A stretch of 64,000 nucleotides of DNA, from NCBI RefSeq assembly GCF_004134905.2, contig NZ_SDPQ02000004.1, forward strand, positions 124,001 to 188,000. The letters are read 5' to 3'. The notes under the pieces were generated by a model. It searched no databases, was not told where the DNA came from, and saw only the letters and a program-made list of their open reading frames with translations. This DNA comes from Aeromicrobium ginsengisoli (GTDB taxonomy: Bacteria > Actinomycetota > Actinomycetes > Propionibacteriales > Nocardioidaceae). A program made the translations under genes and the position numbers. Each line of letters begins with the position of its first letter. Position 1 is the stretch's first letter. This document shows, in pieces, positions 46,999 to 55,474 of the stretch.

Positions 46999-47466
46999 GT
47001 GCCGAATGATGTTCGCGAGCTCGATGACATCGACCAGAGGATCATCACGGAACTGCGCCGCCAGGGCCGGCTGCCCAACAACGCGCTCGCTGAAAAGGTC
47101 GGCATCGCGGCCTCCACCTGCCTGACCCGGTTGCGCAGCCTGATGGACCGTGGCGTCATCGCCGGCTTCCACGCCGAGGTCGATCCAGCGTGGATCGGCC
47201 GGCCGATCCAGGCGATGATCGCGGTGCGCCTGCGCGGTGACGCGCGCGGTGCGATCAACGAGTTCTCCGACCGGCTCGCCGGGATGCCCGAGGTGCTCAA
47301 CGTCTACTTCCTCGCCGGCGCCGACGACTTCCACGTGCACGTCGCAGCGCAGGACCCCGACGACCTGCGGGCGTTCGTCGTCGACCATCTCAGCTCGGCG
47401 CCGGAGGTCGCGCTGACCGAGACCAACCTGATCTTCGAGCACAAGAGGGGCAGACTGGCGGAGTGA
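46999..47466 (+). CDS. Lrp/AsnC family regulator (AldR-like)
   Basis: 155 aa. The helix-turn-helix spans residues about 8-52 (LDDIDQRIITELRRQGRLPN, then LAEKVGIAASTCLTRLRSLMDRG), with the RAM ligand domain after it (VLNVYFLAGADDFHVHVAAQD near 95). GTG 46999 has caggag 6 nt upstream; GTG 46993 is also possible. The divergent alanine dehydrogenase makes this the probable AldR: binding of alanine would switch it to activate ald. A GAGCGAGCGCAGCGAGCG-type repeat overlaps its stop codon. Confidence 0.9.
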   Translation: MPNDVRELDDIDQRIITELRRQGRLPNNALAEKVGIAASTCLTRLRSLMDRGVIAGFHAEVDPAWIGRPIQAMIAVRLRGDARGAINEFSDRLAGMPEVLNVYFLAGADDFHVHVAAQDPDDLRAFVVDHLSSAPEVALTETNLIFEHKRGRLAE

Positions 47467-47486
47467 GCGAGCGCAGCGAGCGAACC
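47461..47486 (+). repeat. GAGCGAGCG...GAGCGAA repeat, copy 1
   Basis: gagtgagcgagcgcagcg then agcgaacc covers the Lrp-family gene stop. A close relative occurs at 51111-51132. Imperfect self-complementarity (cgagcg/cgctcg-like) would let it form a small stem. Such motifs are scattered in actinobacterial genomes; no function is known. Confidence 0.45.
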
Positions 47487-47542
47487 ACGGGCGCACCATG
47501 GCGCCGCTTCCGTATCGTGGGTTTGTCTACGGAGGCGACGAC

Positions 47543-47935
47543 ATGACGGCCATCACAGCGACATTCCGGACGATTCCCGGCACGCAGGCGGCTGAGGGCC
47601 GCACGGGTGAGCACGCCGTGGTCGTCGATCGGCCGGCCGGCGTCGCCGGGGGCGCCGGAGCCGGGATGAACGGCGGGCAGCTCCTCGCGCTCGCGATCGG
47701 TGGCTGCCTCGCCAACGACGTCCGCTACGTCGCGGCGGTCCGCAACGACACGATCGACGACGTCCAGGTCGACGTGTCGCTCGAGATCGACAACGGCCTC
47801 GTCACCTCGGCGGATGTCGTCATCCGCCTGGTCGTGCCGGACGGCGTCGACACCGCAGCGCTGGTGGATGAGGCGGTGGCGGCCTCGACCGTGCTGGCAG
47901 CCGTACGCGACGGCTTCCCGGTCACGGTGCGCTGA
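47543..47935 (+). CDS. OsmC family protein
   Basis: 130 aa OsmC/Ohr-fold protein. Residues GGQLLALAIGGCLANDVRYVAA near 50-71 carry the first conserved Cys, whereas the second Cys expected in Ohr peroxidases is not seen in the tail (VAASTVLAAVRDGFPVTV). This points to a general OsmC-like protein rather than an organic hydroperoxidase. cggagg about 9 nt before ATG 47543 fixes the start. It overlaps the convergent GNAT gene by 14 bp at the 3' end. Confidence 0.82.
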   Translation: MTAITATFRTIPGTQAAEGRTGEHAVVVDRPAGVAGGAGAGMNGGQLLALAIGGCLANDVRYVAAVRNDTIDDVQVDVSLEIDNGLVTSADVVIRLVVPDGVDTAALVDEAVAASTVLAAVRDGFPVTVR

Positions 47936-50052: not shown

Positions 50053-51042
50053 TCACCTGTCGGCGACGCCCAGCTGGGCCAGGATCGTTGCCATCTGACG
50101 CATGATCGAGACCGTCTCGTCGAGGGGAAGCAGCGCCGATTCGGTGGCGCCGGCGCGCAGGCAGGCCGCGACCTCCTCGATCTCGTGGGCGTACCCATGA
50201 CCCGTGACGGGCTCACTGATCGTGTCCACCCGGTCGTCGTGCCAGTGCGTGAACGACGTCGCGGTGGGGAAGCGGGACGGCACCTCGATGAGCCCGGCGT
50301 CACCGGCGATCGAGGCGCGATTGTCGGTGTGCGCGACCTGGGTCCAGGAGATGCTCGCCACGGCACCGCTGTCGTACGCGAGGGTGGCTCCGCCGCTGAC
50401 GTCGATGCCCTCGGCCGACAGCGTCCCGGCGGCGACGATGCCGGCCGGCTCGCCGAGGATCAGGTGCGCGAACGTCAGGGAGTAGATGCCGACGTCGAGC
50501 AGTGCGCTCGCCCCGAGCGCCGGGTCCCAGAGCCGTGCGGTCGTGGCCGGCCCGACGAAGCCGCGGGCGGCTCTGAGCTCGCCGATCGTCCCGAGGGCGC
50601 CGCCGGCAGCGAGCTCGGCGACCCGCCGGATGTTGGGGTTGGCCCGCATCGCCATGGCTTCGGCGAAGAACAGTCCGCGCGTGCGGGCCTCGGCGACGAG
50701 CGTCTCCGCGTCGGCGGGGTTCATCGTGAGCGCCTTCTCGCACAGCACCGCCTTGCCGCCCTCGAAGCACGTCATGACGTCCTCGAAGTGCCGGCTGTGC
50801 GGAGTGGCGACATAGATGACGTCGACGTCCGGGTCGGCGGCCAGGTCCTCGTACGATCCGTGCGCCCGGGCTGCGCCGAACGTGTCGGCGAACGTCCGGG
50901 CGGCGTCGAGCCGGCGAGAGCCGACCGCGGCCAGCTCGTTGCCCTCGACCAGGGCCAGGTCGCGCACGAACGACTCGGCGATGCGACCCGTGGCCAGGAT
51001 TCCCCACCGGATGGGCGTACGCGTCCCCGAATCGGTCGTCAT
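50053..51042 (-). CDS. Gfo/Idh/MocA family oxidoreductase
   Basis: 329 aa NAD(P)-dependent sugar or inositol dehydrogenase-like enzyme. The Rossmann start is RWGILATGRIAESFVRDLAL near residue 12, followed by DVDVIYVATPHSRHFEDVM near 67, the conserved EK-type segment AVLCEKALTMNPADAE near 96 and the substrate domain GASALLDVGIYSLTFAHL near 175. ATG 51042 is chosen because MTTDSGTRTPIRWG leads straight into the fold; the frame extends 36 bp more. The substrate is unknown. It is divergent from the DUF3263 gene, 149 bp away. Confidence 0.88.
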   Translation of the reverse strand: MTTDSGTRTPIRWGILATGRIAESFVRDLALVEGNELAAVGSRRLDAARTFADTFGAARAHGSYEDLAADPDVDVIYVATPHSRHFEDVMTCFEGGKAVLCEKALTMNPADAETLVAEARTRGLFFAEAMAMRANPNIRRVAELAAGGALGTIGELRAARGFVGPATTARLWDPALGASALLDVGIYSLTFAHLILGEPAGIVAAGTLSAEGIDVSGGATLAYDSGAVASISWTQVAHTDNRASIAGDAGLIEVPSRFPTATSFTHWHDDRVDTISEPVTGHGYAHEIEEVAACLRAGATESALLPLDETVSIMRQMATILAQLGVADR

Positions 51043-51110
51043 GACACACAGCCTGCCATTCGGCGAAGCAAATGACACCGGTGTGATTCGTGGCCTAGGA
51101 TGACCAGCAT

Positions 51111-51132
51111 GAGCGAGCGCCAGCGAGCGAAT
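51111..51132 (+). repeat. GAGCGAGCG...GAGCGAA repeat, copy 2
   Basis: gagcgagcgccagcgagcga then at, differing from the copy at 47461 mainly by one inserted base. It lies upstream of the hairpin that covers the DUF3263 start. Function unknown. Confidence 0.45.
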
Positions 51133-51146
51133 CTTGAGGCAGGGAT

Positions 51147-51194
51147 CATGCCATTGCCTCCGTGTCGTTGGCTTGTGGTGGAGGTAATGGCATG
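51147..51194 (+). promoter_or_regulatory. Start-site-sequestering hairpin of the DUF3263 gene
   Basis: Bases 51147-51161 (CATGCCATTGCCTCC) pair along all 15 positions with 51180-51194 (GGAGGTAATGGCATG), with one G-U pair and an 18-nt loop. The right arm contains both the ribosome binding site GGAGG (51180-51184) and the start codon ATG (51192-51194). In RNA this would bury the translation start completely. Alternatively the DNA dyad is a protein-binding site. A regulated switch (temperature, RNA-binding protein, small RNA or upstream translation) is implied but not shown. Confidence 0.75.
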
Positions 51195-51488
51195 AGCGCC
51201 GTGGAGAAGTCGAACGCCGGAGCGCCGGCAGCTGCAGAATCGCTGTCGGAGCGCGACCGCGAGATCCTGGCGCTCGAGCGGCTGTGGTGGCAGTACGCCG
51301 GTGCCAAGGAGCAGGCGATCCGCGACAAGTTCGACATGTCGGCGACGCGCTACTACCAGGTGCTCAACGCCCTGATCGACCGTGAGGACGCCCTCGCGTA
51401 CGATCCACTCCTGGTCAAGCGTCTTCGCCGCCTGCGCGCCCAGCGCCAGCGCAGTCGTTCGGCCAGGCGTCTCGGCATCGACCTCTGA
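51192..51488 (+). CDS. DUF3263 family protein
   Basis: 98 aa actinobacterial protein. After a variable Ala-rich start it has the DUF3263 core: LSERDREILALERLWWQYAG, then AKEQAIRDKFDMSATRYYQVLNALIDRE and a basic tail LVKRLRRLRAQRQRSRSARR. The middle looks like a sigma-70 region-4-like helix-turn-helix, so DNA binding is plausible. It commonly precedes a LytR_C-domain gene, as here (8 bp gap). ATG 51192 has GGAGG 7 nt upstream, but both are inside a 15-bp hairpin (51147-51194), an unusual feature suggesting translational control. Confidence 0.85.
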   Translation: MSAVEKSNAGAPAAAESLSERDREILALERLWWQYAGAKEQAIRDKFDMSATRYYQVLNALIDREDALAYDPLLVKRLRRLRAQRQRSRSARRLGIDL

Positions 51489-51496
51489 AGGTTCCC

Positions 51497-52024
51497 ATGG
51501 ACCACCGCAGGACCCCGACTGGCAAGGCATACGTACCCGCCAGCTGGTTCATCGTCCTGACGATCATGCTGTGCGTCGGCGCTGCCGGCTGGCTGGGCTG
51601 GCTGTTCGTCGACGACGACCCCGAGACCGCGCCGACCACCAGCACGTCGGCCCCGCCGGCGACGAAGACGACGCCGACCCCCTCGCCGAGCAAGACCACC
51701 GAGACGAAGCCGTCGCCCACGCCGAGCGAGTCGAGCGCGTCGCCCGAGGCCGATCGCACAACACCCGTCGCGGTGCTCAACAACACGACGATCCAGGGAC
51801 TGGCGGCGACCTACTCCGCCCAGGTGCGCTCGGCCGGCTGGACCACCGTGACGATCGGCAACTGGCGCGGCTCCATCGCGGGCAACACCGTCTACTTCCC
51901 GCCGCAGCTCGCGGAGCAGGCCAAGCTGCTCGCCGCCGACCTCGACATCAGCCGGGTCCTGCCGAGCGTGGCACCGATGCGGACCGACCGGCTGACGATC
52001 ATCCTGTCCGGCCCGCAACAATAG
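51497..52024 (+). CDS. Membrane-anchored LytR C-terminal domain protein
   Basis: 175 aa. One N-terminal membrane helix (residues about 17-37, FIVLTIMLCVGAAGWLGWLF) is followed by a long Thr/Pro/Ser-rich extracytoplasmic linker (about 42-85) and a LytR_C domain near 88-172 (VAVLNNTTIQGLAATYSAQV, then VYFPPQLAEQAKLLAADL). Such domains are found at the end of cell-wall ligases; standing alone they may recognise wall polymers. There is no catalytic LCP domain, so it is not itself a ligase. It is downstream of the DUF3263 gene, a pairing repeated in actinobacteria. Confidence 0.88.
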   Translation: MDHRRTPTGKAYVPASWFIVLTIMLCVGAAGWLGWLFVDDDPETAPTTSTSAPPATKTTPTPSPSKTTETKPSPTPSESSASPEADRTTPVAVLNNTTIQGLAATYSAQVRSAGWTTVTIGNWRGSIAGNTVYFPPQLAEQAKLLAADLDISRVLPSVAPMRTDRLTIILSGPQQ

Positions 52025-53267: not shown

Positions 53268-53394
53268 TGGCGGTTTACCAAGAGGTCAGGGGAAACTTCG
53301 CGATCGCTCGCACTCCGCACGGCAACCTGCCACTCCGCAAGGCGCGCGCACCCTGAGGAGTGGCTGTTGGCCCTGACCTCTTGGTAAACCGCCA
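53268..53394. repeat. 127-bp palindromic element with perfect 24-bp inverted ends
   Basis: Bases 53268-53291 (beginning TGGCGGTTTACCAAG) are exactly complementary to 53371-53394 (ending CTTGGTAAACCGCCA). The 79-bp middle (53292-53370) holds a direct repeat CACTCCGCA and a further inverted pair (CAACctgCCACTCC against GGAGTGGCtgTTG). No target-site duplication is visible at the ends and no protein is encoded. It could be a non-autonomous mobile unit (MITE-like), a decayed terminator pair or a folded RNA. It fills most of the gene-free stretch 53260-53440. Confidence 0.8.
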
Positions 53395-55461: not shown

Positions 55462-55474
55462 GTCCGTGAAAGAA

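Follow-up and report, generated by a model that had tools for sequence, protein, structure and literature searches.

The hairpin over the start codon of a DUF3263 gene in the soil bacterium Aeromicrobium ginsengisoli is part of a short dispersed element with a mini-ORF that is kept open, arms that co-vary and ends that share one RTGA tetramer with the empty sites of relatives. Based on these features, we consider it highly probable that a miniature mobile element inserts at start codons or stop/start overlaps and couples the translation of the neighbouring gene to an upstream open reading frame (ORF). What began as a question about a single uncharacterised gene thereby becomes one about mobile start-codon elements that form a genus-wide family.

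The element at the DUF3263 start codon

The window, a 64,000-nt stretch of contig NZ_SDPQ02000004.1 (positions 124,001 to 188,000), had been reported to contain a 15-bp hairpin with an 18-nt loop that buries the Shine-Dalgarno (SD) sequence and start codon of the DUF3263 gene. The arms at 51147–51161 (CATGCCATTGCCTCC) and 51180–51194 (GGAGGTAATGGCATG) do pair at all 15 positions, one as G·U and the remainder as Watson-Crick pairs, and an extra pair, 51146/51195, brings the stem to 16 pairs including the one G·U. The right arm runs exactly from the SD GGAGG (51180–51184) to the ATG (51192–51194), as described, and Pfam confirmed the DUF3263 and LytR_C identities of the two genes. Perfect 16-bp stems (≤1 G·U, loop of 3–30 nt) occur twice in the window, here and at 55467, whereas 20 first-order Markov resamples of it yielded not one. 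The predicted stability of the stem is -27 kcal/mol, and the local fold of 51109–51215 lies 2.6 sd below that of shuffles, 2 of 200 of which equalled or bettered it.

This hairpin makes up the 3′ half of a dispersed element 87 nt long (51109–51195), whose 28-codon mini-ORF, overlooked in the first-pass annotation, starts with the ATG at 51109, encodes the peptide MSERQRANLEAGIMPLPPCRWLVVEVMA* and spans the entire hairpin. The E-values given below for copies of the element refer to R1, a covariance model from 24 copies (alignment A1) that was built with the stem included, so that its matches lean towards the stem.

51096..51101, + strand: -10-like TAGGAT, 7 nt 5′ of the mini-ORF ATG
51109..51195, + strand: whole inserted element, 87 nt, with ATGA at both ends (R1 match, E 8.8e-18)
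51146..51161, + strand: left (anti-SD/anti-start) arm, inverted repeat I1, co-varying with the right arm among copies
51162..51179, + strand: 18-nt loop, from folding; 18 nt long in 46 of 52 copies
51180..51195, + strand: right arm, SD GGAGG to ATGA, from sequence and predicted pairs
51192..51195, + strand: ATGA, in which the mini-ORF TGA (51193–51195) overlaps the DUF3263 ATG (51192–51194); second copy of the target tetramer
51192..51488, + strand: DUF3263 gene, 98 aa (PF11662, E 3.3e-37)
51497..52024, + strand: LytR_C gene, 3′ of DUF3263 (PF13399, E 6.9e-13)

No gene lies on the same strand 5′ of the element at DUF3263, and a leaderless transcript start is predicted at or adjoining 51109. 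The DUF3263 promoter also has, at 51071–51088, a separate AATGACANNNNTGTNATT-like palindrome within its -35/spacer segment. This palindrome is kept in 30/30 Aeromicrobium leaders read, was noted on visual inspection in some leaders of Cellulomonas, Ruania, Desertihabitans and Intrasporangiaceae, and is possibly an operator. Tried as a regulon signature with ≤2 mismatches, it was found at three places in the genome, one of the others lying between a putative rhomboid-like and a putative CrgA-like gene. Elsewhere in the window, a 29-nt inverted repeat with 93% complementarity and 69 nt between its arms (53268–53394) is possibly another miniature element or a terminator.

Dispersed copies and empty sites

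With up to three mismatches allowed, the 4.0-Mb genome contains 31 occurrences of the 24 nt that open the mini-ORF and none of the reversed control pattern. The R1 search listed 77 matches up to E 1, of which the best 52 (E up to 3.5e-7) were used as good copies; the 25 below these include short 5′ fragments, opposite-strand stem shadows and weak matches, the 53rd (E 8e-7) being a truncated copy of 48 nt. Copy length was 84 or 87 nt in 46 of the 52, 117 nt in three, and 82, 83 and 116 nt once each, and was divisible by three in 49; the usual form is ~80–83 bp plus a duplicated RTGA. The same tetramer stands at both ends of 46 copies (ATGA in 40, GTGA in six), and most have an SD-like stretch and a start codon at the end of the stem.

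Gene-like frames, defined as ≥60 codons with GC3 >0.75, begin at the terminal tetramer in 49 of the 52 copies, in one of which the ATG falls 3 nt later and the mini-ORF likewise ends 3 nt later. Of the three copies without a downstream gene-like frame, two are the leading members of tandem pairs and the third missed the GC3 cut. At the other end, the TGA of the first tetramer closes an upstream gene-like frame in 35/52 copies. Control RTGAs elsewhere in the same loci passed the upstream test in 25 of 358 cases and the downstream test in 178 of 358; since, in so GC-rich a genome, half of them open a gene-like frame, the upstream overlap is the telling test and the downstream one is less so. Tandem pairs among the matches listed overlap by exactly 4 nt (two in the search of this genome, five more in the Aeromicrobium-wide search). 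Ten of the 52 downstream proteins were scanned, and all ten had a Pfam match and were mutually unrelated, comprising Clp protease (ClpP), short-chain dehydrogenase, RNase J, globin, methylmalonyl-CoA mutase, 4Fe-4S protein, DUF2469, cytochrome c assembly, chlorite-dismutase family and Rieske proteins.

The mini-ORF closes in the terminal TGA in 47/52 copies. One of the five that fail this test just ends 3 nt later, and a truly broken mini-ORF (early stop or frameshift) precedes a gene-like frame in three copies, and any coupling must therefore be dispensable at some sites. Two copies leave the frame across the left arm and return to it by means of a 19-nt loop, which argues that the open frame is kept and not the peptide sequence. 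This bears on the reading of the mini-ORF as a regulatory leader peptide, at whose codons metabolite- or drug-dependent stalling would control DUF3263. A mini-ORF over an SD-burying stem does have the anatomy of translational attenuation, and the left arm and loop repeatedly show a PPYRG-like stretch; however, the same type of peptide stands before unrelated genes, the two frame-restoring copies alter it through the left arm, PP is not constant, and 28 of the 30 DUF3263 leaders read are without it. We regard a leader peptide as very improbable.

The window contains a second copy, which joins the end of one gene-like frame to the start of the next; its left arm is out of frame and a 19-nt loop restores the frame.

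47463..47546, + strand: second copy in the window, 84 nt, GTGA...ATGA (R1 match, E 3.6e-13)

Four copies, in loci L175, L176, L179 and L181 (G000:C3:406669-406784, C3:706170-706286, C1:962050-962166 and C2:428363-428479), have ~30 nt of GC-rich sequence (GGGGGTCCCCC...) nested close to the 5′ end, and the mini-ORF is still open in three of the four. Element 5′ halves also occur alone (G000:C2:146689, C3:403091, C2:936155, C1:1323190 and C1:1145585), where they make very short uORFs or the N-terminus (MSERQRAN / MSQRQRAN) of long frames, one of them putatively GlgB-like. Through such solo halves, the element may also donate coding sequence.

R1 matches were found in 44 of the 49 Aeromicrobium genomes, with 1 to 76 per genome; G015 and G036 are rich in copies, and G048 has none. 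With at most 23 candidates scored per genome in a family sample and at most 11 in a class sample, so that weak copies may be missed, at least 6 of 148 family genomes outside Aeromicrobium had matches, as did at least 21 of 394 genomes in the class sample. Strong matches among the former were confined to G062 (10 copies), an assembly of ~520 contigs with 8% contamination, and those in the at least nine class-sample genomes outside Aeromicrobium were weak (best E 4.6e-6).

Reading of DUF3263 leaders covered the 30 Aeromicrobium genomes, of 49, that were returned as loci. The element is present in two of them, this genome and G037, and absent from 28. In every one of the 30, a TANNNT box stands 6–7 nt 5′ of the first start codon, and on these grounds DUF3263 looks ancestrally leaderless. 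In the sister genome G019, which has an identical DUF3263 protein, the same promoter goes directly into ATGAGCGCCGTGGAG and the site is empty. As G019 and G035, whose leaders are the most similar to the occupied two among those read, are both empty, the insertions at the same ATG in this genome and G037 look like independent events. Empty sites in relatives were found for six insertions, with one RTGA when empty and one at each end when occupied. Besides the two at the DUF3263 ATG, these six comprise the copies in L111, L112 and L125, each with an empty site in at least one relative, and that at 47463–47546, whose site in G019 is an empty ATGA (four of five relatives yielded no alignment there). 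The alignments are less clean at L112, where G024 is shifted by 3 nt, and at L125, where G019 is shifted by 1 nt; at 51109 the alignment of G024 has a gap in the 5′ flank, and direct reading of its leader gives an empty site. The same RTGA of the L125 site carries a different, 115-nt palindromic insertion in G041 (L232) and a 37-nt one in G024 (L233); this site looks like a hotspot, and start codons may attract insertions of more than one element.

The first-pass annotation had treated the hairpin as a switch belonging to DUF3263/LytR_C and opened by a signal, and had named lack of conserved pairing in close relatives as an outcome that would refute it. That outcome is the one observed, as the stem is missing from those 28 leaders; it is instead conserved among dispersed copies before unrelated genes. 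The mini-ORF, which crosses the stem and terminates at the start codon, would already supply the opener, so that no external signal would be needed. A thermosensor or riboswitch specific to DUF3263 could appeal to so stable a stem over SD and ATG; against it, the only two leaders with the stem owe it to a mobile element, and no Rfam match in 50900–51400 came near its gathering score, the two matches listed reaching 18.4 of 100 and 15.9 of 40 bits. We rejected both kinds of switch for want of the stem in most leaders read and of a fitting Rfam family, and hold a signal-opened device here to be exceedingly unlikely.

Co-variation of the arms and the role of the stem

In the 24 copies of A1, 92.4% of stem cells pair, compared with 32.5–56% when the arms are slid out of register; both sides change in 12 of the 16 pairs, and 0/500 shuffles equalled the observed values on any of five measures. 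A total of 44 of the 52 copies in this genome were also examined, six with another loop length or register and two tandem duplicates of the same hairpin being omitted, and 602 of their 704 cells are Watson-Crick, compared with 487 ± 7 when whole arms are re-dealt (0/2000 as high); as the copies are related, all these shuffles overstate significance and their counts are not probabilities. A fixed register including those six (50 copies, 800 cells) gave 632 Watson-Crick, 65 G·U and 20 A·C cells, where 518, 98 and 54 were expected. Compensatory changes, for which the first-pass annotation had proposed a test, thus maintain the stem over the SD and start codon among the copies, where no shuffle reached the observed pairing. 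The covariation extends to the start codon: a C faces the G in five of six GTG-ending copies (the sixth is off register there), and mostly a T faces the A in ATG-ending copies, with at least one exception, C3:497471, which has a mismatched C. DNA template switching (quasi-palindrome correction) can create arm complementarity, and part of the co-variation among paralogous copies could stem from it.

Non-canonical pairs are unevenly distributed, with G·U exceeding A·C by 49 to 8 in the 44 copies of this genome and by 26 to 0 in 19 copies from other genomes (one match from each of 19 Aeromicrobium genomes). Re-dealt arms also favour G·U, with a share of 0.66 (own) and 0.76 (others) compared with the observed 0.86 and 1.0, and the need to keep an SD in the right arm may strengthen this lean. 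In a double-stranded dyad G·U and A·C should be equivalent, so selection for pairing probably acts on the sense strand, either RNA or single-stranded DNA. A DNA-binding dyad, or operator, had been offered as the alternative to a switch and accords with the near-perfect inverted repeat; the G·U excess disfavours it, as does the variation of arm sequences between copies with complementarity kept, although a separate conserved palindrome lies upstream in the promoter, at 51071–51088. An operator in the stem is, in our judgement, barely credible.

An element that had only to be harmless would need no hairpin over a ribosome-binding site (RBS), so the stem could serve mobility instead, as a single-stranded hairpin of DNA or RNA that a mobilising enzyme recognises, with SD burial as a by-product. 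Conservation of the stem before unrelated genes fits this reading, as do the precise insertion and the terminal tetramer belonging to the stem, and the G·U excess is compatible with single-stranded DNA, in which G·T also beats A·C. However, a pure mobility structure has no need of a start codon and SD-like stretch at the stem end or of a mini-ORF kept in frame, and the REP/RAYT-type Y1 transposase (PF01797) was absent from all 49 Aeromicrobium genomes, whereas 5 of 14 control genomes matched. Mobilisation by RAYT/REP was rejected on this count, and we think it unlikely, with some chance left to it, that the stem is kept for mobility. A bolder possibility, which we put at a low probability, is that the element seeks out start codons and spreads via RNA or in a manner tied to translation; each insertion would then bring a self-contained cassette for translational coupling, and this would be a new mobilisation mechanism that rewires leaderless and operon genes genus-wide. 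The sense orientation of 49/52 copies before a gene-like frame, although RTGA tetramers abound elsewhere, and the tendency of the left arm to match the start codon landed on are the observations behind it.

Proposed mechanism and relation to known systems

Under the coupling model that we favour, the element inserted at the start codon of DUF3263, a gene that was ancestrally leaderless, and the old leaderless promoter would now start the transcript at the mini-ORF ATG. A ribosome would initiate there leaderlessly, read the 28 codons, unwind the stem in passing and terminate at the TGA within ATGA, on the DUF3263 start codon. The freed GGAGG and the overlapping ATG would then let the same ribosome or a new subunit start DUF3263, and the stem would suppress initiation that bypasses the mini-ORF. 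The element would in this way bring an SD and hide it, together with the ORF that opens it. At DUF3263 the upstream ORF driving the neighbour would be the leaderless mini-ORF itself, and at most other sites the preceding operon gene, whose ribosomes would reach the element ATG via the same kind of ATGA overlap. The family offers natural before/after pairs, in which sister genomes hold the leaderless and the putatively coupled version of a gene's start, dozens of natural SD-burying stem variants for testing how ribosomes open structured starts, and, in 49 genomes with 0 to 76 matches, a place to look for the mobiliser.

Among the publications listed by the literature searches, none dealt with an element of this type from Aeromicrobium, Nocardioides or actinobacteria. 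REP/REPIN elements are extragenic, non-coding and mobilised by RAYT (Y1) transposases. The Aeromicrobium element likewise is a small dispersed repeat that bears a hairpin and lacks its own transposase gene, but it occupies start codons with a kept ORF. The short target-site duplication, RTGA, is a trait of classical MITEs; terminal inverted repeats of the classical kind were not seen in this copy, as none of the three inverted repeats in 51060–51260 pairs the element ends. Mycobacterial interspersed repetitive units (MIRUs), reportedly described by Supply et al. in 1997, are a closer counterpart in architecture, and to our knowledge no mobiliser of MIRUs is known either.

MIRUs are reported to be 46–101 bp long at 41 loci in M. 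tuberculosis (PMC3914561) and to enter start codons in such a way that an ORF inside them is coupled, at -4 spacing, to the gene that follows (PMC12548453). Those sources describe short dispersed repeats with tandem copies, start-codon insertion and a -4 ORF overlap, all of which the Aeromicrobium element shares, the insertion and overlap as a matter of anatomy (47/52 mini-ORFs closing in the terminal TGA, 49/52 downstream frames, one-RTGA empty sites). A parallel to the element on an ancestrally leaderless-looking DUF3263 is provided by parA, which PMC4128351 reports as leaderless in M. marinum and, in M. bovis, as preceded by a 77-nt 5′ UTR made up wholly of a class I MIRU. The two differ in genus and family, MIRUs being mycobacterial. 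R1 gave one weak match (E 2.9e-4) in 13 mycobacterial genomes that may or may not hold MIRUs. The element is best called MIRU-like and is not assigned as a MIRU, the likeness being one of architecture, and MIRU-like insertion is hereby shown outside mycobacteria.

The proposed mechanism is modelled on translational coupling as treated in PMC12548453, by RNA unfolding and by termination-reinitiation at ATGA overlaps. In the coupling systems covered by that source and PMC6728339, an upstream ORF likewise crosses structure that hides the downstream start, with a 4-nt stop/start overlap; the Aeromicrobium device differs in being a portable, repeated cassette and not a feature of one operon. A literature search on MIRU, hairpin and Shine-Dalgarno returned, among the matches listed, only a coupling review as relevant, and the passages seen of PMC12548453, PMC3914561 and PMC4128351 mention for MIRUs no co-varying stem that buries the SD and start codon, which is a feature of the Aeromicrobium element. 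Compared with the closest known systems, the element is distinguished by the absence of RAYT transposases (0/49 genomes) and by its RBS-burying stem.
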